Positions 33,983 through 46,842 of a DNA stretch of 64,000 nt are shown in pieces. Position numbers and translations under genes: made by a program. The DNA comes from Candidatus Obscuribacterales bacterium (GTDB lineage: Bacteria > Cyanobacteriota > Vampirovibrionia > Obscuribacterales > Obscuribacteraceae), in assembly GCA_020050835.1 (NCBI GenBank), contig JAGVKB010000129.1:1-64000 (forward strand), in the 5' to 3' direction. The stretch's first letter is position 1; each line of letters starts with the position of its first letter. The notes under the pieces are model-generated. The model was not told the DNA's origin and did no database searches. It worked only from the letters and a program-made list of their open reading frames with translations.

Positions 33983-34333
33983 AAGCTGTCCAGACAGACG
34001 ACCGCACCCCTACAAGTATGTACCCGAAGTGATTGTCACAGAAACTTCTGTCTGTCAAAGTTCACCAGTCGAAGCCGGGCAGTTGCTTCTGCGAAATTGG
34101 AGTGCTAATTCCGTACTTTCTGACCAGTCCTTGCTTCGCTCGCATGCCATCCGCGATCCGCCATCCAAGCCATGATCTCACAAGCATGCACTGGCTTGGT
34201 AATGTTTTTCAACATCCTGCTATGGGCATCCAGATTACCTGCCCGCACCGGGTCGTACCGTCAATGATGTTTGGGAAACTGTCAAGCCGGGAAAGCAACA
34301 GCAAGTGACAGGTGTGCCAGTCCGATAATTGAT
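33983..34333. other. Divergent intergenic region between the giant protein and kinase-TPR 2
   Basis: About 350 bases and no credible gene. Copies of CTGTC/GACAG cluster here: a CTGTC-GACAG dyad at 33986-33997, CTGTCTGTC at 34048-34056, and a 14-base palindrome ACAGAA-AC-TTCTGT at 34038-34051. These may be operator sites for the divergent genes. No clear -35/-10 pair was seen. Confidence 0.4.
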
Positions 34334-36904
34334 GTGATAGGCAGCATTCTCGACGATCGCTACGAGATCATCTCTTTGATAGGCGCTGGCTCCGCGACCG
34401 TCGTTTATAAAGGGCGCCATCGATTCATGAATCGCCTGGTGGCCGTCAAGGTTCTGCAAGCTGGCAGCGGTGGCGGTGAGGACCGGCTCAGGCGCTTCAA
34501 GCGAGAAGCGAAGGCGGTCAGTATTCTCGATCATCCAAACCTGGTCAGCTTCCACGACTTCGGAGTGCTGGCGGACGGCAGACCGTATCTGGTGATGGAC
34601 CTGATCGAAGGTACGACTCTCGCTGAAGAAATAGCCAGTCAAGGATCTCTGCCGGCCGATCGCGTCGTGAAGATCTTCTGTCAGGCTGCAACTGCGCTGT
34701 CACACGCGCATCAACAGGGGATCATTCACCGTGATCTCAAGCCCGGCAACATCATGCTACAAGCAGAACAAGCTGACGCAGTGGGCGTGAAGATAGTAGA
34801 TTTCGGTGTGGCCTGGGTGAATTCGGCTGATTCAGCCGATTCGGCGCAGTCGCATCAACTCTCGAACAGCGGCAGCATAATCGGCTCTCCTTCTTACATG
34901 AGCCCCGAGCAGTGCTTGGGCAGAGCGGTGGATGCCCGCTCGGATGTCTATTCATTGGCTTGCGTCATGTACGAAGCGCTCGTGGGCAAGCCGCCTTTCG
35001 CCGGGGCCAGCCCGTCGGCGGTGGCTGACAAGCAGGTCAAGGAAAGGTTGCAGCTGCCTGAGGAGGTTGGCCGATTCCCTAAAATTCCCGAGCAGCTCAA
35101 GGCGGCTCTGATCAAGGCAACTGAAAAGGAGCCGTCGAAGAGATTTCAGTCGATGAGCGAATTTTGCCAGGCGATCAATCTTTGCGCCAATCGAACAAGC
35201 TCTGTTCGGCCGGCGTTTGGTGCTAACTTGGCTTGCACGCGCAAACACGTATTATTGACGTTAGGTCTGTTACTGCTCGTGTTGATAACAGTTCTGCTTG
35301 TATCTTGGAGTCGCAGTGGCGAACCAGCAGTGCTTTTTTCAAGAGTGAAGCTGATTTATGCGAGCGTGTCAGGCGGACCGGTCGATGCCAATCTGAAAAA
35401 GGAGATTCAGGAGCTTTCAAGACTTCAGGAACAAAGTGGTCAATTGTTGGAGGCTGTTCGAACCGCCCAGATGCTTGTAGAAAGTTTCGACCAGGAAGGA
35501 TTGCGGTACGACCCGGAAAAGTTGGATGCTCAATTGCGCATTGCTGATCTGCTGGCAAAAGCCGGCAAGCCGGTGGAGTCTGAAAAGGAGTATTGCAAGG
35601 TTCGGGCCAATGCCAGAGCTGGTCTCATGGAGTTAAGCAAGAGGCCAAAAGAGGACCGCGCCGCCAAAGCGCAGTTGTTTGTGCGCTTGATCAAAGCTTT
35701 GGCGAAGTGTTCAGCGGCGGAAAAGGACGAACTGGACGAGGCGTTGCAGCAGGTGGTCGGATTGTACGGACTGATGGGACAGACGGCGGACAAGGTAATC
35801 TATCAAAAACAGCTGCTCGACCTGAGACGACAAACAGCCCCTGCCAATCGGTCGTTGATAGGGGAAGCCTGCCATGAACTCGCGCAGACCTACGTCGTGC
35901 GTGGAGAGAAAGAGAAGGCGTATCCGCTTTTTGTAGAGGCTTGCAAGCTGGAGAAGGCTTCGCCTGGAGAAAGCGATCTGCGCGCTGTGCTATTGGATTA
36001 CGGAAAGCTGTTGTTTATGGACGGCAAGTCGAATGAAGCGCTTGAAACTCTCAAAGCAGCTCTGCAAACAGCCAAGAGTCAAAATGACGTGCGCCCAATC
36101 TTCTGGGATGAAGTGTATTCCGATCTGACCTATGTATTTGTTGGAGCCAGTCAGTACAGGCAAGGAGATCTGTTCATGCAAGCGGAGCTTCGGGCTGTAG
36201 CCGATCCGGACCGTAAGCATAAGAGGGAGGCGGTGCAAAGATGCTTATCTGTGCTGAGCATTTACGAAGGAGATTTCGACCGGGCTCTGGCAATCTTTGA
36301 CCAGGCATTCACATCCATGACCGATGAACCGAAGGCTCATGTGTTTATAGGATCCTATGCTTTAGAGTTTGGCACTAGGCTCGACGAAGCTGGAAAGTTC
36401 AAGCTGGCCGAGCAGATGTACAAGAAAACCTTGACATATTTTGACGATAATGCACTGACAGCAAAGCCGCTTTATCCGATCCTGGTATACAGTTTAGGCG
36501 ATCAGTATTTTAAACAAGGTAAGGATAGCGATGCAGAGCGGGAATTTGCTCGGTCACTCGAACTGGCCAAAGAGCGATCAAACGATCAGACTACCTTCGT
36601 ACCACGTTGCCTGCTTTCCTGGTCTCAACTCTGCGCCAGGCACCAGCGGCAAGCACAATGCGAATCGCTCTTAAAAGAATGCATCAACAAAGCGCAAGTG
36701 CTCGATTCGCCGGACAAAGCAGCTGCTGTTACTGCCTTTGAGGATTTGCTTCGGGCCTATATCAATGACAGCCGATTCGACCAAGCCAGGAAAACCTTCG
36801 CGGAGGCACAGGAATTTTGCATTCACAACAACCTGCCAGAAGGCTTGCAGAGAATTGAAAAGGAGTTTTCTGAAAAGGTGACTCGGTCCGGTCATCAGCA
36901 TTAG
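34334..36904 (+). CDS. Membrane-anchored Ser/Thr protein kinase with TPR domain (kinase-TPR 2)
   Basis: 856 residues from GTG 34334, chosen because the resulting start (MIGSILDDRYEI) matches kinase-TPR 1 exactly in layout; the frame extends to TTG 34271 without support. The kinase has IGAGSATVVY, VAVKVL, SILDHPNLVSFHDFG, catalytic HRDLKPGN, DFGVAW, SPEQCLGR and DARSDVYSLAC, so all key residues are in place. A membrane helix (HVLLTLGLLLLVLITVLLV) follows near residue 300, then ~540 residues of TPR-type helices outside the cytoplasm. Such proteins are thought to sense envelope or external signals through the TPR part and phosphorylate cytoplasmic targets. It is divergent from the giant surface-protein gene. 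Confidence 0.9.
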   Translation: MIGSILDDRYEIISLIGAGSATVVYKGRHRFMNRLVAVKVLQAGSGGGEDRLRRFKREAKAVSILDHPNLVSFHDFGVLADGRPYLVMDLIEGTTLAEEIASQGSLPADRVVKIFCQAATALSHAHQQGIIHRDLKPGNIMLQAEQADAVGVKIVDFGVAWVNSADSADSAQSHQLSNSGSIIGSPSYMSPEQCLGRAVDARSDVYSLACVMYEALVGKPPFAGASPSAVADKQVKERLQLPEEVGRFPKIPEQLKAALIKATEKEPSKRFQSMSEFCQAINLCANRTSSVRPAFGANLACTRKHVLLTLGLLLLVLITVLLVSWSRSGEPAVLFSRVKLIYASVSGGPVDANLKKEIQELSRLQEQSGQLLEAVRTAQMLVESFDQEGLRYDPEKLDAQLRIADLLAKAGKPVESEKEYCKVRANARAGLMELSKRPKEDRAAKAQLFVRLIKALAKCSAAEKDELDEALQQVVGLYGLMGQTADKVIYQKQLLDLRRQTAPANRSLIGEACHELAQTYVVRGEKEKAYPLFVEACKLEKASPGESDLRAVLLDYGKLLFMDGKSNEALETLKAALQTAKSQNDVRPIFWDEVYSDLTYVFVGASQYRQGDLFMQAELRAVADPDRKHKREAVQRCLSVLSIYEGDFDRALAIFDQAFTSMTDEPKAHVFIGSYALEFGTRLDEAGKFKLAEQMYKKTLTYFDDNALTAKPLYPILVYSLGDQYFKQGKDSDAEREFARSLELAKERSNDQTTFVPRCLLSWSQLCARHQRQAQCESLLKECINKAQVLDSPDKAAAVTAFEDLLRAYINDSRFDQARKTFAEAQEFCIHNNLPEGLQRIEKEFSEKVTRSGHQH

Positions 36905-37011
36905 TTTGACCGCCGATTTTACCGAGAGGCAAAAACAGTCAGTCCGGTGCGCGAGCTGTCCGGTCCGTACCGTTATGCCTATAAATGTCCGGCAGGGTAA
37001 AATCGGTGTAT

Positions 37012-38046
37012 ATGAGAATCAAAAGCATTCACAATCAGCACTCAATGCAATTGGCCGGACCAGCCGCGCCGCCAGCCAGCCTGATCTTGGCGGTCGGAGT
37101 TTTGTTGGTCTTGACTTTATCAGCTGCTGCGCGCACGCCTTGGCCGGATTCTCCCCTGGCTCCGGAGGTTCAGGTTCAACTGGAGAAAGCCGGGCGATAC
37201 ATGAAGTCGGGCAAGCCTCAGCAAGCAGCCCCAATTATCGAGTCTGCGGTTTCTTCAGCCAACGATATCCCGAAATGTCTGGCGATCGCCACCTTCTCGG
37301 AGACGTACGGTTATCCTTTGATGGAGCCTCGCCGTCGCTGCATGCAAAAGGCGCTGTCTCTCTGCCAAACGCGTGAAGATTACATTCTGGTTGCCTTAAA
37401 ATCCAGGCATTTTGAGTTTTATGAGATCACCAGAGAATGTATCAATCATCTGGTTCAAGGTGCCAAAACTGTCGATGAACTGTTCGATCTCGCTCGCAAG
37501 TCGCAGGAGGTTGCCCTGAACGATGTCTCTCATATGGCGATGGAGAAGGCTTACACGGGAGTCAAGAATGTTCCGGACGCCGTCAAATTTGCTCATGAAG
37601 TAAAGCAGATGGGGATGGACGATCTCGTTCGCAAAGTTGTTAAGGACTTGATCGACGACGACGACAACGGACTTTCACTTTGCAATCTCCTAAAGAGTAT
37701 TGAAAGTCTGGCCATGGAGGACTTGAATCGCTATTGTTTAAAGAAGGCGCTGGACAAAGCCGAGACGATCGACGAGTTGAAATGCATTTATGAGGGCTCC
37801 CGGCGAAATAGACAGAACGACATTATGCAGGTGGCGCTTTATCGTGGCAAGAAGCTGACTTTGATCAAAAAGATTCAACACGATCGCGACGAGTATGCCA
37901 GGCAGATGAAGGACTGGCAGGAAGGGGTTCAGCAGGACCTCGCCAAACAGCAGGCGGAAGCTGAAAAGAATATGGGTGGCGATCAGGGCGGGAAGAGGTT
38001 TGGTGGCAACGGCAATGCACCAGAGAACCCCAATAGCGGATTCTAA
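37012..38046 (+). CDS. Secreted alpha-helical repeat protein
   Basis: 344 residues from ATG 37012; an upstream ATG at 36985 adds nine residues with no better binding site. A hydrophobic segment (ASLILAVGVLLVLTLSAAA) near residues 20-40 is a signal peptide or anchor. The rest is helical, with ~40-residue units such as DAVKFAHEVKQMGMDDLVRKVVKDLI and SIESLAMEDLNRYCLKKALDKAETIDEL. These resemble degenerate TPR or Sel1-like repeats. The last ~60 residues are coiled and end in a Gly/Asn-rich tail. I recognise no family. It lies between kinase-TPR 2 and the histidine kinase on the same strand, so it may be an extracytoplasmic partner of either. Confidence 0.72.
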   Translation: MRIKSIHNQHSMQLAGPAAPPASLILAVGVLLVLTLSAAARTPWPDSPLAPEVQVQLEKAGRYMKSGKPQQAAPIIESAVSSANDIPKCLAIATFSETYGYPLMEPRRRCMQKALSLCQTREDYILVALKSRHFEFYEITRECINHLVQGAKTVDELFDLARKSQEVALNDVSHMAMEKAYTGVKNVPDAVKFAHEVKQMGMDDLVRKVVKDLIDDDDNGLSLCNLLKSIESLAMEDLNRYCLKKALDKAETIDELKCIYEGSRRNRQNDIMQVALYRGKKLTLIKKIQHDRDEYARQMKDWQEGVQQDLAKQQAEAEKNMGGDQGGKRFGGNGNAPENPNSGF

Positions 38047-38090: not shown

Positions 38091-39560
38091 ATGAAAAGTT
38101 TCGATCTCCGGCTGTCCCACAAAGTCTTGATTCTTGTTTCAGTGCCGATCGTGCTGATGCTGGTGTTTGTGGCTACCCTGGCTGCTTTGCAAAAACAGGC
38201 CGAAGATGAGATTTGGCGCGAACGCCACTCGAAGGCTGTCATCGCCGAATGCAATTCGCTCATGCACAACTTCATGGATGCCGGCATGTTTTTGTTCCTC
38301 TACGAAGAGACGCACCAGCGAAGTTTTTTGAAGAGTTACCAGTCGATGTCGCAGCAGATTCCGGTGCAAATCAACTCTCTGAAAGTCATGTTGCGCGACA
38401 GCCCCAATTCGGAAGATTCTCTCGAGCAGCTCGACAAGGTCGGAGGCAGCGCCGTTCAACTACTTCGTAAGGCAGATCAAGTGATCGACAGCAAGATCGA
38501 AGGCGGTGGAAGTAAGAGCAGCTCGCATGCGGAGTTTGTGCAAACGTCGACCGAGATGCTCTCCTGCTTGCGCAAATTCATCGACGAGCAGCAAGATGTC
38601 GAGCGCACCAATCCGAAGAATGAGGCTCGCTTGCGCTTGTGGATTAGCCAGTGGTTATGCGCTGGAGTCCTCTTGAGCATTCTCCTGGCGGTTGCTCTGG
38701 CGGTCTTTTTCAACCGGGCTACCACCAACCGGCTGCTAGTGCTAGTGGATAATACGTATCGTTTGGCCGCTGGTAAGGAGTTGCGCGACAAATTGTCCGG
38801 CAACGATGAGATAGCGCATCTCGATGGCGTCTTTCACGACATGGCTTTTGCGCTGAAGGAGACGTCAAGACGCAAACAAGAGCTAGTACAAATGGTGACG
38901 CACGATTTGCGTACTCCACTTACTTCAATCAATGCGGCCCTTAAGATCATGTCGTCTGGCATATCAGGTCCGCTCCCAGACAAGGCTTTCAAACAAGTCG
39001 GGATAGCCGAGCGCAGTTCGGACAAGCTGCTCAATCTGGTTAATGACCTCCTGGATATCGAACGGATGGAGACCGGAAATTTCGCTCTGGAATTGCAGAG
39101 AGCATCGGCTCAACAGATTGTCGATGCTGCGGCGGATTCAGTCAGAGCGTTATTGTCGGCGCGCGGTATCAAGCTCGTGGTCGGTGAGACCGACCTCTGG
39201 GTGCAGGCTGATCCCCGGCGGATCGAGCAGGTCTTAATCAACTTGTTGTCGAATGCTGCCAAATTCAGCGCTGACCATGCTCGAGTCGAGCTGCAAGTGA
39301 GTGCCGCAGACGATCAGGTTGAATTCAAAGTGATCGACCAAGGTCGCGGTGTGCCGGCAGAGTTTCAAACGGCAATTTTCGAGCGATTCGCCCAAGTGAA
39401 AATGGCCGATTCGGTGCGTGGAAAAGGCACCGGATTGGGATTACCCATCTGTAAGGCGATTGTCGAAGCTCACGGTGGAACGATTGCCATGACAAGTCGG
39501 GATGGTGAGGGAAGTATATTCTGGTTTCGCATTAAACAGGCAAAGCCGGAGGAGAAGTGA
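38091..39560 (+). CDS. Membrane sensor histidine kinase
   Basis: 489 residues from ATG 38091; GTG 38079 is also possible. Two membrane helices (about 10-32 and 183-205) enclose a ~150-residue helical extracytoplasmic domain like CHASE3/four-helix sensors. A HAMP region follows (about 206-260). The HisKA H-box is VTHDLRTPLTSI with the phospho-accepting His. The ATPase domain has the N box QVLINLLSNAAKFS, G1 DQGRGVP and G2 GKGTGLGLPICKAI, so it should be active. The stop codon overlaps the GTG of the next gene (GTGA), and the receiver-kinase fusion follows that gene. The natural reading is a two-component system whose output is a Ser/Thr kinase. Confidence 0.92.
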   Translation: MKSFDLRLSHKVLILVSVPIVLMLVFVATLAALQKQAEDEIWRERHSKAVIAECNSLMHNFMDAGMFLFLYEETHQRSFLKSYQSMSQQIPVQINSLKVMLRDSPNSEDSLEQLDKVGGSAVQLLRKADQVIDSKIEGGGSKSSSHAEFVQTSTEMLSCLRKFIDEQQDVERTNPKNEARLRLWISQWLCAGVLLSILLAVALAVFFNRATTNRLLVLVDNTYRLAAGKELRDKLSGNDEIAHLDGVFHDMAFALKETSRRKQELVQMVTHDLRTPLTSINAALKIMSSGISGPLPDKAFKQVGIAERSSDKLLNLVNDLLDIERMETGNFALELQRASAQQIVDAAADSVRALLSARGIKLVVGETDLWVQADPRRIEQVLINLLSNAAKFSADHARVELQVSAADDQVEFKVIDQGRGVPAEFQTAIFERFAQVKMADSVRGKGTGLGLPICKAIVEAHGGTIAMTSRDGEGSIFWFRIKQAKPEEK

Positions 39561-41299
39561 GCGGAGCCTACGCCTTGTTGCCTATGCTGTTTACGGCTCT
39601 GTTGGCGATGAGCCTGACAGCCTGCTGTGTCGTGGTGTCCTTCGACCGCTCTTACAATTTGCGCCAGTGGGAGAAGTTGCGAATCGGCTCCGAACAAGCC
39701 TTTCTCGGCGAAGACTTGCCGCGGGCAGAGCAGCTGATCCGATCGGCTCTGACATATGCCGAGCGCTTGGGAAACGGAGACTTTCGGGTAGGCACCACGC
39801 TCTTGCAACTTGGTGATGTCCTTATGCTGGAAGGTAAAACAGGTGAAGCTCGCACGGTGTTCGAGCAGTCGCTTGGTTGCATGCAAGTCAGCATAGCGCG
39901 ATCCGCTAAAGAGAGGGAGCGCAGGCAATTCCTGAATGAGGCGGGCAAGGTGTTGCTGAATCTTGGTGCTATCTGCCTGGAATTAGATGATCTGCCTGCG
40001 GCAGAGGGCTATTTCCAAAAGGCGGAGAAAGTTTATGAGGAGTTGCTGGAAAGCGTTGGAGTTGAACGGATAGCAGAAGAGATTGGACAGTCCCTGTACG
40101 GTCTGTCGTTGGTGAACTTGAAGCAGGGTAGAACGATTGAGTCCGAAAGGTTTTACCGGCTGGCGGTGGACTCGTCGGCTTCCGCTGGCTATTCAGCTGC
40201 TTTAGCGCGCAAGCTGCGTGCGCTCGAGCCGTTGTTGAGGCAGGTGCCGAGCGTTCCGTCGACAGTGACGATCCAATCTGATGAGCGCTGGCGCAACTGT
40301 GTTTTAGCCGGACGGGAGGCCTTTAGCTCAAAGAATTTTGCTGAAGCCGAAAGGCAGTATCGGCTGGCTGTCGAAGAGGCCGGGAAGCTGGGACCGGACA
40401 ACCAGAAATTGGCTCAAGCATATAAAGACCTGGCTGCATCTCAAGAGTGGCTGTCGAAGTTTGCCGACGCGGAGGCCTCATATCGCAAGGCGCTGGCGCT
40501 GCGCGATAAACGAAGCCCGGGCGGCGACGAGGAGAGCGAGAAAATCTTGACCAAATTGGCTAATTTTGCCGAAATGAGAAAGGATTACCGGCAGTCCGCT
40601 GATTTACTAAACAGGCAGCTCAAGATTCGCCAGCAAATTTATGGCCCTGACAGTACTGAAGTGGGCGAGACGCTGACGAGACTGGTTGAAGTTGACCTCG
40701 CGCGCGCGAAGAATTCCGAGGCGGCCGGAGAAGCGGTGAAGGCCTGGGCGATTCTCAAAGAAAGCGACCAGACCCGGGGTAAGTCGGTGGTGGCATACGA
40801 AAGTCTTTCGCAAACCTTGTTTCAATTGGGAAAGTACAGTGAAGCTCGCCAAGCCAACTTGAAGTTAATCGCTGCTTGCAGCGCAAAAAAGAAATACACT
40901 CTGCGCAAGCTCGCGGCCAGTTATCGCTTGGCCGCTATCGCCGCGCAGGAAGGAAAACAAAGAAGCGCATCGGCCGAAAGTCTGTTGGCGAGCGCTTCGG
41001 CGCGGGCCGCTCTCCAGGATCCCCAATACATGCTGGCTTTAATTGAAAAGCTGAATGAAGATGCTCGCCTGCTTGCCGCTCATGGACAGATGAAGGGCGC
41101 AGCGGCCTTGGCTGAATGGTCGCTCCGGTTGTTCTCCGACCAGGATAAAGACTCTTCCGGAATGGCAGCGGCGAAACTAGCGGTGCTCGAGAATCTTCGT
41201 TCTCTCGAGGGCAGTCTTGGGCATAACTTGAAGGTCGATCGACTGTCAGCTCAGATCGCCGATCTCAAACGGTTACAAAATGAACTGAGTGGAAAGTGA
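39557..41299 (+). CDS. TPR lipoprotein between a histidine kinase and a receiver-kinase
   Basis: 580 residues. GTG 39557 overlaps the histidine kinase stop by four bases and has GGAGGAG just upstream, so translation is likely coupled. The N terminus (LLPMLFTALLAMSLTAC) ends in a lipobox LTAC, giving a lipid-anchored protein on the outer face of the inner membrane or the outer membrane. The body is TPR helices in two blocks: LPRAEQLIRSALTYAERLG and FAEAERQYRLAVEEAGKLG are typical units. Loop lengths of ~42 residues suggest kinesin-light-chain-like TPRs. Placed between the sensor kinase and its probable receiver, it is a good candidate for an accessory sensor that touches the histidine kinase's external domain. 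That role is inferred from position only. Confidence 0.85.
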   Translation: MSGAYALLPMLFTALLAMSLTACCVVVSFDRSYNLRQWEKLRIGSEQAFLGEDLPRAEQLIRSALTYAERLGNGDFRVGTTLLQLGDVLMLEGKTGEARTVFEQSLGCMQVSIARSAKERERRQFLNEAGKVLLNLGAICLELDDLPAAEGYFQKAEKVYEELLESVGVERIAEEIGQSLYGLSLVNLKQGRTIESERFYRLAVDSSASAGYSAALARKLRALEPLLRQVPSVPSTVTIQSDERWRNCVLAGREAFSSKNFAEAERQYRLAVEEAGKLGPDNQKLAQAYKDLAASQEWLSKFADAEASYRKALALRDKRSPGGDEESEKILTKLANFAEMRKDYRQSADLLNRQLKIRQQIYGPDSTEVGETLTRLVEVDLARAKNSEAAGEAVKAWAILKESDQTRGKSVVAYESLSQTLFQLGKYSEARQANLKLIAACSAKKKYTLRKLAASYRLAAIAAQEGKQRSASAESLLASASARAALQDPQYMLALIEKLNEDARLLAAHGQMKGAAALAEWSLRLFSDQDKDSSGMAAAKLAVLENLRSLEGSLGHNLKVDRLSAQIADLKRLQNELSGK

Positions 41300-41312
41300 G
41301 CAGCGGTGCGCA

Positions 41313-42662
41313 ATGGCAAAAATCCTTATAGTCGAAGACGACCGGGATCTGTGTGAGCAGGTCTGCCTGTGGCTCGACTCCGAAGCGTATGAAGTGGAGG
41401 CGGTGCATGACGGTCTGGCCGGCTCCACCCGGCTGGCTCAAGCCGATTATGATCTGGTCATGCTCGATTGGGACTTGCCAGGCCGGAGCGGGGTCGAACT
41501 TTGCCGGCTGTATCGGCAGCAGGGCGGAATGGCTGCCGTACTAATTTTGACCGGCAAGGGAGAAATAAATGAAAAGGAGGAGGGATTGGATGCTGGTGCG
41601 GACGACTATCTGACCAAGCCGTTCGATCTGGTGGAGCTGTCTGCTCGTGTGCGTGCTCTTTTGCGGCGGCAGGAGAGAAGCAAGCGCATGGCTCAAGCGA
41701 AAGAGCCACCAAAGATCATCGAGGTGAAGGTCTGTCCGGGCTGCGGTGCGAGCTTTCCGAAAGAAGCAAACGAATGCGATGCATGTCGCTGTGCGCTCCG
41801 ATTGCGGGTGGTCGATCAAAACATCGGAACAACCATCGGTGAGCGGTATGAATTGCTGTCTGTAATCGCCCGTGGTGGCACAGCGTCCGTCTATCTTGGC
41901 CGGCAGAAATTGATCAAGCGAGCGGTTGCTGTCAAAGTTTTGCATGCTGACAATTTCAAGGACGAAAGGCAGAGAAAACGCTTTGCCCGCGAAGCTGAGG
42001 CTGTCGGCCGGCTGGATCACGCGCACATCGCTGCCGTGCATGATTTCGGTTTGGCTGAAGACGGGCGCCCATTTTTGGTCATGACCTATATCGACGGTCA
42101 GAGTCTGTATGAAATGCTCTTGGAAAACGTGACGCTCGATTGGAGACGCGCTGTTCGGTTGTTTGGTCAGATCTGCGATGCGCTCGTCCACGCGCACGCG
42201 AAAGGGGTGGTGCATCGCGATCTTAAGCCAGCAAATGTAATGGTGGAACGCCCCGGAGAGCCGGCCGAGGCGATCAGGCTGGTCGATTTTGGAATTGCAA
42301 GATTACGACCGGTCAATGATGACGAAATCGAGAAATTGACGCAAGATGGTGAGTTTTTTGGCACGGTTTATTACATGAGCCCGGAGCAATGCCTGGGCCA
42401 GGAGCCGGACGAGCGATCGGACATTTATTCTCTGGGTTGCATAATGTACGAGGTGCTCACCGGGCTGCCGCCGATCCGAGGCAAGAATGCGCTCGATACG
42501 ATTCAAGCCCATTTGAGCGCAAATGTGCTTCCGTGCCGGGAAGCCAGACCGGACTTCGCCTTGCCTGAGTGGTTGGATGCCGCTGTCATGCGATGTTTAG
42601 CCAAGCAGCCGGTGGGTCGCTATCAGTCTTGCCGAGATCTGCTGTCCGATTTGAGCAGGTAA
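41313..42662 (+). CDS. Response-regulator receiver fused to zinc ribbon and Ser/Thr protein kinase
   Basis: 449 residues from ATG 41313, the standard receiver start (MAKILIVEDD); GTG 41289 is an alternative. Residues 1-120 are a REC domain with D9/D10, the phospho-accepting D52 (LVMLDWDLPG), T80 and K102 (LTKPFD). Residues 141-158 form a CPxC...CxxC zinc ribbon. From ~177 there is a full Hanks kinase: ARGGTASVY, K208, DHAHIAAVHDFG, HRDLKPAN, DFGIAR, SPEQCLGQ, DERSDIYSLGC. No DNA-binding domain, membrane helix or TPRs. It follows the histidine kinase and TPR lipoprotein directly. Phosphorylation of D52 probably controls the kinase; its substrates are unknown. REC-kinase fusions exist but are uncommon. 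Confidence 0.92.
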   Translation: MAKILIVEDDRDLCEQVCLWLDSEAYEVEAVHDGLAGSTRLAQADYDLVMLDWDLPGRSGVELCRLYRQQGGMAAVLILTGKGEINEKEEGLDAGADDYLTKPFDLVELSARVRALLRRQERSKRMAQAKEPPKIIEVKVCPGCGASFPKEANECDACRCALRLRVVDQNIGTTIGERYELLSVIARGGTASVYLGRQKLIKRAVAVKVLHADNFKDERQRKRFAREAEAVGRLDHAHIAAVHDFGLAEDGRPFLVMTYIDGQSLYEMLLENVTLDWRRAVRLFGQICDALVHAHAKGVVHRDLKPANVMVERPGEPAEAIRLVDFGIARLRPVNDDEIEKLTQDGEFFGTVYYMSPEQCLGQEPDERSDIYSLGCIMYEVLTGLPPIRGKNALDTIQAHLSANVLPCREARPDFALPEWLDAAVMRCLAKQPVGRYQSCRDLLSDLSR

Positions 42663-42673
42663 ACCGACCAGCG

Positions 42674-43468
42674 TTAGAGAAGAAAGCTCAGTAAAGGGTG
42701 CTGCGAGCAGAGCGACAGCAGAAGCAACCCACCGGTTTCCGCCAACTCCACGCAGGCACCATAGGTGTCTCCGGTCTGTCCCTTTAAAGTATCGTTCAAC
42801 CAAAACGAAAATGACAAGCCGGAGGCGACTGTGAGGAGGGCTGCCAGTACTGCCAGGGTAGACCCCTGATATTGAAGACAGGCTGTGGCGACAAGCGGTG
42901 CTAAGGCGGCCAAAAACACATCTCTGGGAAAGCGAGTTGTGTCATGCCAGACCTTGCCCATGCCCTGCTCCCTCAAATAGGGAAATGCACCGATCGCAAA
43001 GGTTTCGCACCAACGGGCCCAGGCTGGCACCATCAAAAAAACAGTCAGATACAGGTTGAAGCTGAAGGGCAGACTGCTCAGAGCGGCAAACTTGAGCAGC
43101 AAAACGCACCAACCGGTGATCGCACCGAAATTACCCACTCGGCTGTCGGCCATGATTTCGAGCATTCGCTCTTGATTGCGGTGAGAGAAGATACCATCGG
43201 CGGTGTCCATCAAACCATCGAAATGAATGCCGCCGGTAATCAAAAGCCAGGCAATTGTCAGAACAGCTCCCCAGACCATTGGAGAAGGATTCATGATGTT
43301 CAATCCACAAGCCAGGGCGAACAGCAAGGCACCAATTAGAAGCCCGACCGCCGGCAGGTACTTGGACAGTCCCGATAGTTGCAAGTCGGCATCGGTGGCC
43401 GGAAGTTTGCATAATGTCAGGCGTGTCACGTAAGAGGTCGCAACCGCAAATCGCCTTAGAGCGTTCAT
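42674..43468 (-). CDS. cobS: Adenosylcobinamide-GDP ribazoletransferase (cobalamin synthase)
   Basis: 264 residues, mostly membrane helices, the usual size for CobS. It joins adenosylcobinamide-GDP to alpha-ribazole to finish the nucleotide loop of adenosylcobalamin, in the inner membrane. The diagnostic block is GGIHFDGLMDTADGIFSHRN followed by EIMADSRVG, with the metal-binding Asp residues in place. Its ATG overlaps the stop of the TPR gene by one base, so translation is coupled. No other cob genes and no cobalamin riboswitch are visible here. Placed after lipA and a TPR protein, it may belong to a mixed cofactor operon. Confidence 0.93.
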   Translation of the reverse strand: MNALRRFAVATSYVTRLTLCKLPATDADLQLSGLSKYLPAVGLLIGALLFALACGLNIMNPSPMVWGAVLTIAWLLITGGIHFDGLMDTADGIFSHRNQERMLEIMADSRVGNFGAITGWCVLLLKFAALSSLPFSFNLYLTVFLMVPAWARWCETFAIGAFPYLREQGMGKVWHDTTRFPRDVFLAALAPLVATACLQYQGSTLAVLAALLTVASGLSFSFWLNDTLKGQTGDTYGACVELAETGGLLLLSLCSQHPLLSFLL

Positions 43469-44739
43469 TACGGCACCTCGGCGGAGTATTCCGGACGGCT
43501 GGGAAAGGCTTCGCTGTTGCCGAGAATCAGCCCGTCTCGGCGTGCATCGTAATAAGCAACGATTGCATGAATTTGATTGAGCAGGTCAGGGTCCGCTTCC
43601 AGACGAGAAGTTTTGTCGAGCAGTCTTTCTGCACTGGTTTGCGGATCTTCGGTTGAACCTTCGTCAGTTTCGAATGTATCTGGCCGGCCGTCGTGCCATT
43701 GCTCGAGACGGAACCTTTCGGCCCAGGGCAATGCACAAGCATCGGCCAAACAACCAACAATCTCCGGGGCGATCGGCAACGGCTCGCTGGCTGTCAGGGC
43801 GTAAGCAAAGATGCTGCGTTGAGGTTGATGGTCTTTGAAGCTTTCATGCGGCCCTAAAATGTCACTGCCCCAGGCCATTACCAGCAGCGCCTGCTCTTGC
43901 CGGTTTGCCCCCTTGTAAATCTCGCAAGGCAAGCCGAGAATCTCGGCCAGAGCTTGCGCCAGCGGGCGCGAGAGAGTGCTGTAGTACTCGACAAATTCGA
44001 ATGTTTGACCCAGCCCTTCCAGCATGCCTCGCAAGAGCAGGAGCGTCTTGGCGCACTCCGTGTAATCATCGAGAAGCTGCCCGAATTTGCCGCCTGCATT
44101 TTGATCATCGCTTTGCTTCAAGAGCGCTGAACCGTAGTGAATGTAAAGCCAGTCTCGCGCGGATAGAACCTTTTTCCGATTGAATTGCTCGAGTCGCTTC
44201 AGAACGAGCTTCTGTTGTGAGAGTTCAGCCTTCTCTTCGTCGCTGGCGGCAAGCGATGCCATCGCATCGAGCATCGAGCGAACCGGTTCGGGATCTCTGA
44301 GGCAGAGATGAGCTACGGCCAGATTCAGTCTCGTGTCGAAGTCGTCTATTGCTTGCAAGGAGCGGTTGAAATGCGGAATAGCCTGGGCATAGCGTTTGAG
44401 CGAAAGTAACGTAAACCCAAGCTCGTAATTGATGGTTGGCTCATCGGGCGCGAGTGCCAGGCAGCGTGTAAGCAGCAGCGCAGCCAGCTCATGCTGCCGG
44501 TTGTCGATCAACTGGTAACCTGCCTCGAAAAGATTTTGAACATCGCTCAGAGAATGCTCGTCTCGGGAAAGTTGAACTAGCGTTGCCGCTAGTTCGGCTC
44601 GTCCAAGCGTCTTTAGGAGTTGAGCCAAGAGGCGAATGGTTTCGAGGCAGTCGGGATGACTGAGCCAATTCTCTTTCAGGAGCAAGAAGCACTGCTCGTG
44701 CTCGCCTTGTTCCAGCAACCTTTTTGCTCGCTCCAGCAT
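43468..44739 (-). CDS. Cytoplasmic TPR protein with unknown C-terminal domain
   Basis: 423 residues without signal peptide. Residues 1-~170 are TPR helices (HPDCLETIRLLAQLLKTLG, INYELGFTLLSLKRYAQAI, PHFNRSLQAI). After a helical linker, residues ~260-420 form a mixed domain (LAEILGLPCEIYKGANRQEQ; LLVMAWGSDILGP) that I do not recognise. The start is four bases after the lipA stop, and the end overlaps cobS. Three tightly joined genes suggest the protein is made together with two cofactor enzymes, but its role is unknown. Confidence 0.8.
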   Translation of the reverse strand: MLERAKRLLEQGEHEQCFLLLKENWLSHPDCLETIRLLAQLLKTLGRAELAATLVQLSRDEHSLSDVQNLFEAGYQLIDNRQHELAALLLTRCLALAPDEPTINYELGFTLLSLKRYAQAIPHFNRSLQAIDDFDTRLNLAVAHLCLRDPEPVRSMLDAMASLAASDEEKAELSQQKLVLKRLEQFNRKKVLSARDWLYIHYGSALLKQSDDQNAGGKFGQLLDDYTECAKTLLLLRGMLEGLGQTFEFVEYYSTLSRPLAQALAEILGLPCEIYKGANRQEQALLVMAWGSDILGPHESFKDHQPQRSIFAYALTASEPLPIAPEIVGCLADACALPWAERFRLEQWHDGRPDTFETDEGSTEDPQTSAERLLDKTSRLEADPDLLNQIHAIVAYYDARRDGLILGNSEAFPSRPEYSAEVP

Positions 44740-44742
44740 CGC

Positions 44743-45639
44743 TTAGCCGAGCTTTCCAGCTAGCTCTTTAGCGTGATAAGAGCTTCTCACGAGTGGACCG
44801 GAATGAACCATTTTGAAACCCATCTGCCAGGCTTGTTCGCCTAGTTGCTCGAACTCTTCCGGCGTCACGTAGCGGCAGACCGGCAGCTGCTCTCGACTAG
44901 GGCGAAGATATTGCCCGAGCGTTACGAAATCACAGCCTACCTTGCGCAGATCGCTCAGAACCGACAAGACTTCTTCGATAGTTTCGCCCAGTCCGAGCAT
45001 CAAGCCGGACTTGGTGTGAATGTGGGGATTTATCTCTTTCGAAAGGGCCAGAACCTGCAAGGAGCGATCGTATTTTGAACCGGGTCTGACGCGGCGATAC
45101 AGTCTCGGGACGGTCTCGACATTGTGATTGAAAACGGTCGGGCCGGCTGCCAAAACTATTTCGATACAATCCTTGCGGCCTTGAAAGTCGGGTGTGAGTA
45201 TCTCCACGGCAACGCCCGGAATGCTCTCATAAAGGGCCGTAATCGTTCGGGCAAAGTGATTGGCGCCCTGATCAGGCAGCTCATCGCGGTTAACCGATGT
45301 GAGCACCACGTGCTTAAGCCCCATCTCCTTGCAAGCGGCGGCTATGCGGGCTGGTTCTTGAAAGTCGAGCGGCGCGGGCATTCCCTTGTTGACCGAGCAA
45401 AATCGGCAAGTGCGAGTACAGACCGGACCCATGAGCAAGAAGGTGGCTGTGCCGGCAGCCCAGCATTCTCCTTTGTTGGGGCATCGCCCGCTTTCGCAAA
45501 TAGTATTTAAGTTCTGCTCTTTGAGTATTTTGCGAACTTGCCTGTTCTCATCGGTGTTGAGAACGGTGCGCTTCACCCATTCTGGCAACCTTTCCGGTTT
45601 GACAGCAGATGGCTCGGTCTTAGACTGCGTACTTTCCAT
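44743..45639 (-). CDS. lipA: Lipoyl synthase
   Basis: 298 residues. This radical-SAM enzyme inserts two sulfur atoms into octanoyl groups on lipoyl domains of 2-oxoacid dehydrogenases and the glycine cleavage system. The auxiliary cluster cysteines lie in CESGRCPNKGECW, and the radical-SAM cluster in CTRTCRFC. The C terminus ends with the family block PLVRSSYHA, whose Ser ligates the auxiliary cluster. The start ATG 45639 has no strong binding site. lipB is not adjacent; the downstream genes are the TPR protein and cobS. Confidence 0.95.
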   Translation of the reverse strand: MESTQSKTEPSAVKPERLPEWVKRTVLNTDENRQVRKILKEQNLNTICESGRCPNKGECWAAGTATFLLMGPVCTRTCRFCSVNKGMPAPLDFQEPARIAAACKEMGLKHVVLTSVNRDELPDQGANHFARTITALYESIPGVAVEILTPDFQGRKDCIEIVLAAGPTVFNHNVETVPRLYRRVRPGSKYDRSLQVLALSKEINPHIHTKSGLMLGLGETIEEVLSVLSDLRKVGCDFVTLGQYLRPSREQLPVCRYVTPEEFEQLGEQAWQMGFKMVHSGPLVRSSYHAKELAGKLG

Positions 45640-46038
45640 GACTATTTGTCAACCTTTGGGAAGGAGGTCGAGACAACCCAGCTATTCTAAGGTATTTACA
45701 AGAGCCGACCTTAGATGGCGGCAATTCCTTCAATTCAAGTTGACCGATTAGAATCTTTTCGGTATCTAGAAAGTCAGGCGCATTACCGGGTAACTGCAGG
45801 CTGGGCTGGAGCGTTGGCCAAGCCTGGAGCTTCTCAAGATGGAGCGGAACAGCTCTGGAAGCGGTCGCTCGAGGCGGCTACAGCAGCCGTCTGGCTGTGC
45901 ATACTGAGATATCGTAAAATAGCGCAGTGAATGAGAGCGAGGAGCTCTCGGCGGCGAAGCGAGTTCTTGCGCCAAGGTGATTGGGCCGGCGCGATTTCCG
46001 TCTAGAATGCGAAGCGCTTATACGGGAGGAGCTGAAAA
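45640..46038. other. Divergent intergenic region between lipA and tpiA
   Basis: About 400 bases. A 71-residue frame at 45715-45930 lacks a convincing binding site and runs into a repeated hairpin element, so I do not call it. The right half holds hairpin element A (45911-45992). Promoters for lipA and tpiA must lie here, but none matches a consensus well. Confidence 0.45.
45911..45992 (+). repeat. Hairpin element A, upstream of tpiA
   Basis: The first ~51 bases match element B (47130-47180) at roughly four of five positions. Its core is a stem GAGAGC/GCTCTC around the loop GAGGA (45933-45949). A second, weaker stem GCGCC/GGCGC lies at 45969-45992, and AGCGCTTA follows near 46013. The tpiA start is at 46039. 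The two elements keep the loop but change a stem pair on both sides. Confidence 0.6.
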
Positions 46039-46842
46039 GTGAATGGACAAGAGCGTCCGGTGATCATCGCCGGCAATTGGAAGATGCACAAGACTCGAGC
46101 GGAAGCTGTCGAGCTGTCAAAGACCATTCGCAATGCGGTTGCCGGCGAAAAGGATCTGCCGGTCGTCGTATTGTGCCCTCCCTTCACAAGCCTGGAGGCT
46201 GCTCTATCGTCCTGCGAAAAGAGCGAGATTCAGATCGGCGCTCAAAATATGGAGCATCGCGACTCCGGGGCATTTACCGGCGAGGTCTCTCCGTTGATGC
46301 TGAAAGATCTTGGAGTGAGCTACGTGATTATCGGGCATTCCGAGCGCAGGCAGCTTTTCGGCGAAACAAATACTTCGGTTAATCTCAAGTTCAAGGCGGC
46401 CTTGAAGCACAAGCTCGTGGCGATCGTCTGCGTCGGCGAGACGTTGGATGAGCGCGAAAGCAACCTGACCGATGCGGTCGTCAGCCGGCAAGTGGCAGCC
46501 GCTCTGGATGACGTGGATGCCGCCGATCTCAAGACTCTGGTCATCGCTTACGAGCCGGTTTGGGCAATTGGAACCGGCAAAGTTTGCGAGGCCGACGAAG
46601 CCAATCGTGTTTGCAAACTGATCCGCGCTACCGTCGGTAATCTATACGGCAACAAGAGCTTGTCTCAAAGCATTCCAATTCTTTATGGTGGCAGTGTCAA
46701 GCCGTCCAATATAGATGAACAGCTCGCTCAAAGCGATATTGACGGCTCACTGGTTGGTGGCGCCAGTTTGAATGCCGAAGAATTCTTAGCTCTTGTTAAG
46801 TCGGGGCAGAAAAAGGTTGGGCTGGCCGCTTCCCGCTCATAG
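46039..46842 (+). CDS. tpiA: Triosephosphate isomerase
   Basis: 267 residues, slightly longer than the usual ~250. It interconverts dihydroxyacetone phosphate and glyceraldehyde 3-phosphate in glycolysis and gluconeogenesis. The catalytic residues are in place: Lys in GNWKMHKT, His in IIGHSERR, and Glu in AYEPVWAIGTGK. The phosphate loop is ILYGGSVKPSN, with VGGASLNAEEF after it. GTG 46039 is the start, with GGGAGGA eight bases upstream. Upstream is hairpin element A. The gene stands alone and is followed by tRNA-Ser. Confidence 0.95.
   Translation: MNGQERPVIIAGNWKMHKTRAEAVELSKTIRNAVAGEKDLPVVVLCPPFTSLEAALSSCEKSEIQIGAQNMEHRDSGAFTGEVSPLMLKDLGVSYVIIGHSERRQLFGETNTSVNLKFKAALKHKLVAIVCVGETLDERESNLTDAVVSRQVAAALDDVDAADLKTLVIAYEPVWAIGTGKVCEADEANRVCKLIRATVGNLYGNKSLSQSIPILYGGSVKPSNIDEQLAQSDIDGSLVGGASLNAEEFLALVKSGQKKVGLAASRS

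Follow-up and report, generated by a model that had tools for sequence, protein, structure and literature searches.

The window analysed here is a stretch of 64,000 nucleotides from a Candidatus Obscuribacterales bacterium (contig JAGVKB010000129.1), which carries at positions 38091-42662 the genes of a sensor histidine kinase (HK), of a TPR protein predicted to be a lipoprotein and of a receiver (REC) domain fused to a Ser/Thr kinase. The three genes are intact and co-directional on the forward strand, every catalytic residue is kept, and the arrangement described in an initial sequence-only reading holds. The features are the following:

34271..36904, + strand: upstream Ser/Thr kinase that carries TM and TPR; perhaps on the same transcript, outside the conserved module
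36985..38046, + strand: upstream protein with a membrane anchor, belonging to no known family; perhaps on the same transcript as the module, with which it is not conserved
38091..39560, + strand: sensor histidine kinase; TM, CHASE3-like, TM, HAMP-like, HisKA, HATPase_c
39557..39560, + strand: GTGA start/stop overlap of the HK and TPR genes; GGAGGAG at 39548-39554
39557..41299, + strand: gene of the predicted TPR lipoprotein; GTG start within the HK stop, lipobox LTAC, LRQWE motif
41313..42662, + strand: response regulator-kinase; REC, zinc ribbon and Hanks Ser/Thr kinase, soluble, without TM
41313..41678, + strand: REC domain, OmpR/PhoB-like; phosphoacceptor D52 (codon 41466-41468)
41733..41786, + strand: zinc ribbon CPGC...CDAC (residues 141-158)
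41847..42659, + strand: Ser/Thr kinase domain; conserved T343 (codon 42339-42341) of the activation loop

The two upstream genes (34271-38046) run straight into the HK gene and possibly share one transcript with the cluster. As parts of the module they were rejected: no P0005 homologue was found in the first annotated set of relatives' loci, and both genes are absent at a second cluster of the host genome (L039, see below). The flank at 42674-46842 is ordinary, with cobS, an unnamed 423-aa protein and lipA on the reverse strand and tpiA on the forward strand. A scan for promoters and terminators gave scores close to those of shuffled sequence.

The HK begins at ATG 38091, in agreement with the start of its homologues (MKSFDL/MKAPDL), and ends at TGA 39558-39560. 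Two TM helices (residues 12-30 and 189-207) lie around a helical periplasmic domain of ~150 residues, and the cytoplasmic part comprises, in this order, a HAMP-like stretch, HisKA and HATPase_c (Pfam 4e-16 and 2.7e-28). The H-box with the phospho-acceptor H271 (codon 38901-38903), the N-box and the G-boxes are all intact, as in a two-component sensor histidine kinase. The sensor domain missed the gathering score of CHASE3 (PF05227), reaching 23.8 bits versus 28. The predicted structure of residues 1-254 is a bundle of long helices (mean pLDDT 80), and since this four-helix-bundle fold stays below the PF05227 threshold it is called here CHASE3-like only. Among solved structures the sensor model came nearest to NarQ fragments; XylFII-LytS and, from the QseG-QseE complex, the QseE chain were listed too, and no match was at E<0.001.

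The overlap of the HK and TPR genes by GTGA, as originally noted, is present at 39557-39560, so that the GTG start of the TPR gene (39557) shares its letters with the HK stop, just behind GGAGGAG. The protein matches TPR_12 (2e-23), and its hydrophobic signal ends in the lipobox LTAC (residues 20-23, with Cys23 at codon 39623-39625), with the motif LRQWE soon behind it. The Cys is kept in most homologues. The n-region MSGAYALLPMLF is without K/R, a residue carried there by several homologues, and the assignment of the window protein as a probable lipoprotein therefore takes the lipobox and the conserved homologue Cys as its basis. Among relatives' TPR proteins with a readable N-terminus, nearly all are membrane-anchored, mostly by a lipobox, with LRxWE behind the anchor; in genus g23 (L066, L067, L068, L070, L147) an N-terminal TM helix takes the place of the lipobox. 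A TPR-like match in one relative (G011:C16:55127-55696) falls within a giant gene, whose open frame runs over 24,351 codons (~73 kb).

The third gene starts at ATG 41313, 13 nt past the TPR stop; the mechanical ORF opens at GTG 41289, and the ATG was preferred because homologues align from MA(K/R)IL. Its product has no TM helix and matches Response_reg (4e-25) and Pkinase (1.5e-44). The receiver holds D9, D10, D52, T80 and K102, and the last three, which the first reading had singled out, are invariant in a five-protein alignment. Only the REC is OmpR-like, as no match to Trans_reg_C (PF00486), the winged helix of the OmpR/PhoB family, was found in the protein. The reported CxxC...CxxC ribbon joined to a complete Hanks kinase was equally borne out: CPGC (141-144) and CDAC (155-158) lie in an interdomain ribbon/linker of ~45 residues, and the kinase keeps the VAVK lysine K208, the alphaC glutamate E227, HRD (301-303), N308, DFG (325-327) and the APE-type motif SPE (356-358). 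Like PknB-type Hanks kinases, the domain aligns to the PknB model (NF033483, 294 bits) with all catalytic motifs; unlike them, the protein is without PASTA or TM, adds a REC and a ribbon, and remains below the whole-protein cut-off of that model (450).

In Galperin's censuses, response regulators with enzymatic outputs, where REC controls an enzyme domain, reportedly include rare REC-Ser/Thr kinase fusions. The window protein would belong to this kind of regulator, and it departs from those fusions in the zinc ribbon between the domains, in the linkage to an HK and a TPR lipoprotein, and in copy number. The host genome (7.0 Mb, with 75 Pkinase and 86 HisKA matches) encodes at least 23 such fusions, roughly one in three of its protein kinases. 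A HisKA gene lies at most 5 kb away from 12 of the 23, as against 6 of the 50 other kinases compared (Fisher p=0.0004), an enrichment which supports REC-kinases as HK outputs in general. Two classes can be told apart. Class I, with the zinc ribbon, comprises the proteins of the window and of L039, L040, L085, L086, L103, L104, L105 and L108, and class II, the larger one, takes in most other REC-kinases and has a short conserved linker without ribbon; LGxxNEAVLxRAxLxGTxLAxRYEF is found in most of the host's copies. Host REC-kinase loci include L084, L087, L089-L091, L093, L094, L097, L098, L102, L106, L133-L137 and L139. Ribbon-kinases without REC are common in the host's bacterial family, where this half of the protein is ordinary and the REC fusion is not. 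The search for REC-zinc ribbon-kinase architectures suggested in the first reading recovered the fusion in relatives. Given this common build and the ribbon-free class II, the ribbon is no special connector. With 33 candidates scored in each genome, REC-kinases were found in at least 8 of the family's 50 genomes, and none was found among the best 5 candidates per genome in 292 genomes sampled across the phylum. A single-protein scan of genome contigs gave no family member, its 17 matches being separate REC or kinase proteins, and a full-length match on an Azospirillum plasmid was discarded as two adjacent genes.

Contig C120 of the host genome holds a second such cluster, in identical gene order (L039), with all three proteins homologous to those of the window (65% identity for the HK sensor, 36% for the TPR protein and 62% for the REC-ribbon-kinase). 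Three further host clusters (L041, L062, L084) hold a homologous HK, TPR protein and REC-kinase. Among the 50 genomes of the family, none but the host showed the order HK-TPR-REC-kinase. The sequence-only reading had made its case depend on conservation of the gene order in relatives; for the exact order, found only in the host and there twice, the case fails, but the association of HK, TPR protein and regulator is conserved. The sensor profile (A1) matches throughout the 50 genomes because this sensor type is widely expanded; in one subfamily of these HKs the gene has a TPR lipoprotein gene (profile A3) as its companion. Such HK+TPR pairs occur in at least seven genera besides that of the host, in more than one gene order and orientation, and in genera g7, g12, g14, g17, g21, g23 and g24 an OmpR-type regulator (REC + Trans_reg_C) stands beside the pair. 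In the usual layout (L054, L056, L059, L066-L069, L074, L077, L079) the regulator lies between HK and TPR genes in the opposite orientation; at L058 and L150 the TPR gene precedes and overlaps the HK gene, and the association thus survives rearrangement. At one locus (G023, L061:5751-7703) the module's HK gene and its OmpR-type regulator gene have a separate gene for a Ser/Thr kinase between them. Module-type HKs at L065 (G050) and L071 (G048) have no TPR or regulator neighbours, and the same genomes hold class I REC-ribbon-kinases without HK, possible split partners. As for the proposal that the three proteins form a functional set, the paralogous cluster, the wide association of HK and TPR protein with a regulator, and the enrichment near HKs speak for it, and the confinement of the exact order to a single genome speaks against.

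The phylogeny of the HKs places those of the window and C120 inside an OmpR-partnered clade (99% SH-aLRT), sister (99%) to HKs at L055, L075 and L076, all with OmpR-type neighbouring regulators; L055 and L076 are also beside a TPR gene, and L075 is on a short contig. No other member of this 21-row clade has a REC-kinase neighbour, and from this nested position the kinase-type regulator is the derived partner. Judged from the trees, then, the ancestral modules of the HK+TPR pair had an OmpR-type DNA-binding regulator, and the pair has since changed partner. For the five clusters of HK, TPR protein and REC-kinase, the HK tree rejects one common origin (AU p=0.0014), and since their HKs do not form one clade the change took place at least twice, all five clusters being in the host genome. 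Two origins of the regulator, in-place exchange of the output domain and recruitment of a whole REC-kinase, were compared on the kinase and REC trees; the REC-ribbon-kinase may have come whole to the side of HK+TPR, or may have originated at that place and spread from it. In the kinase tree, class I REC-ribbon-kinases form one clade (95% SH-aLRT) beside ribbon-kinases without REC; the REC tree, poorly resolved over 121 columns, did not reject placement beside the OmpR receivers that belong with the sister HKs (AU p=0.52).

Among known systems, the arrangement most resembles QseE-QseG-QseF of enterobacteria (GlrK-QseG-GlrR), with its operon order HK, lipoprotein, response regulator. Both systems co-encode a regulator with an envelope lipoprotein and a membrane HK whose periplasmic sensor is a four-helix bundle, a likeness for which the model match of the window sensor is not significant. 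In QseEGF the lipoprotein binds this sensor and raises autokinase activity (PMC6075780, PMC12691602). On the other hand, QseG is a 237-aa helical protein versus the 580-aa TPR protein of the window, and QseF binds DNA at sigma-54 promoters instead of having a Ser/Thr kinase output. Moreover, the QseE chain was not among PDB sequences at E<=1 with profile A1, and neither QseE nor QseG chains were among the best 60 PDB matches listed with profile A3. With this different output and no sequence relationship found, the window system would work like QseEGF by analogy and is probably no member of it. Operon-encoded lipoproteins that modulate the sensor domain of a linked HK are also an actinobacterial feature, as in LpqB, which acts on MtrB (PMC3353115), and in CseABC (PMC9739842). 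These two systems differ from the one described here in their other lipoproteins, their actinobacterial distribution and their DNA-binding output. In general, HKs of the present kind phosphorylate a linked REC, OmpR/PhoB receivers dimerise through the alpha4-beta5-alpha5 face upon phosphorylation, and a Hanks kinase becomes active when it dimerises and its activation loop is phosphorylated. The receivers of MtrAB-LpqB and CseABC are OmpR-type, as is the REC of the window. From established OmpR/PhoB and Hanks-kinase structures, we take K88, D97/D98, E108 and R112 to be dimer-face residues, all kept in class I REC-kinases (R112 being K in two), and T343, kept in 34 of 36 REC-kinases, to lie in the activation loop.

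From this knowledge, the kept residues and the precedents of QseEGF and LpqB, we infer the following chain, all of its biochemistry as well as the direction in which control runs and the contact of lipoprotein and HK. From its anchor in the envelope, the TPR lipoprotein would signal the condition of the envelope to the periplasmic four-helix bundle of the HK, which would autophosphorylate on H271 and pass the phosphoryl group to D52. The OmpR-type REC would then dimerise via its alpha4-beta5-alpha5 face and join two kinase domains, allowing mutual phosphorylation at T343, and the activated kinases would phosphorylate Ser/Thr substrates. We hold with moderate confidence that the locus is such a three-component envelope signalling module, whose regulator came by partner change to act through protein phosphorylation and not transcription.

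The sign of control could be the opposite, REC phosphorylation restraining the kinase so that an envelope signal turns Ser/Thr phosphorylation off. It is common for a response regulator to inhibit its output domain when in one of its phosphorylation states, and a ribbon/linker of ~45 residues is available between the domains, but the retention of the OmpR-type dimer face and the normal activation of Hanks kinases by dimerisation make this unlikely. Alternatively, the HK may address a distant DNA-binding regulator, the REC-kinase answering another HK or integrating several inputs. For none of the class I REC-ribbon-kinases of other genera (L040, L085, L086, L103-L105, L108) does the examined DNA show an HK neighbour, which means that HK linkage is not universal, and the nearest kin of the HK have OmpR-type regulators as partners. 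Against this stand the two paralogous clusters in the same order, the general linkage of REC-kinases to HKs, and the DHp helix-1 specificity stretch, which in the window and C120 HKs is shifted from the SVQxSLTLL of most OmpR-partnered relatives, and we regard a separate partner as quite unlikely. That the TPR protein is an envelope protein merely sharing the transcript of a plain two-component pair agrees with the large number of signal-sequence TPR proteins in these genomes and with the putative nature of its contact with the HK; its company with the HK subfamily across many genera, despite changes of order and strand, and its conserved lipid or TM anchor and LRxWE motif render this very unlikely. 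Finally, a feedback arm, in which the kinase mainly phosphorylates the HK or another regulator rather than cellular targets, has parallels in Ser/Thr kinases that modify two-component proteins (PrkC-WalRK, cited in PMC6213207) and in the separate kinase gene of G023, but is highly improbable for a soluble and complete kinase that offers no substrate clue.

Under the preferred reading of a module with a kinase output, what is new is the joining of a REC-kinase with a lipoprotein-HK pair that in relatives accompanies a DNA-binding regulator, in a genome with that many receiver-kinases. As relatives keep the sensor pair with such a regulator, an envelope sensor that formerly controlled genes seems in the host to have been turned to protein phosphorylation. 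More broadly, with chances that we put slightly under even, one lineage may have repeatedly switched its envelope sensors from DNA-binding regulators to eukaryote-like Ser/Thr kinases under receiver control, feeding a genome-wide Ser/Thr phosphorylation network instead of transcription and keeping the lipoprotein-HK pair. This would be a natural experiment in signalling evolution, in which one lipoprotein-sensor pair is found with both kinds of regulator, so that partner change, specificity drift and output exchange become directly testable. It would also provide a genetically simple cascade from His-Asp to Ser/Thr kinase signalling in a bacterium, two kinds of phosphorylation usually treated as separate, and the presence of at least 23 receiver-kinases in one genome suggests a general strategy rather than a curiosity.
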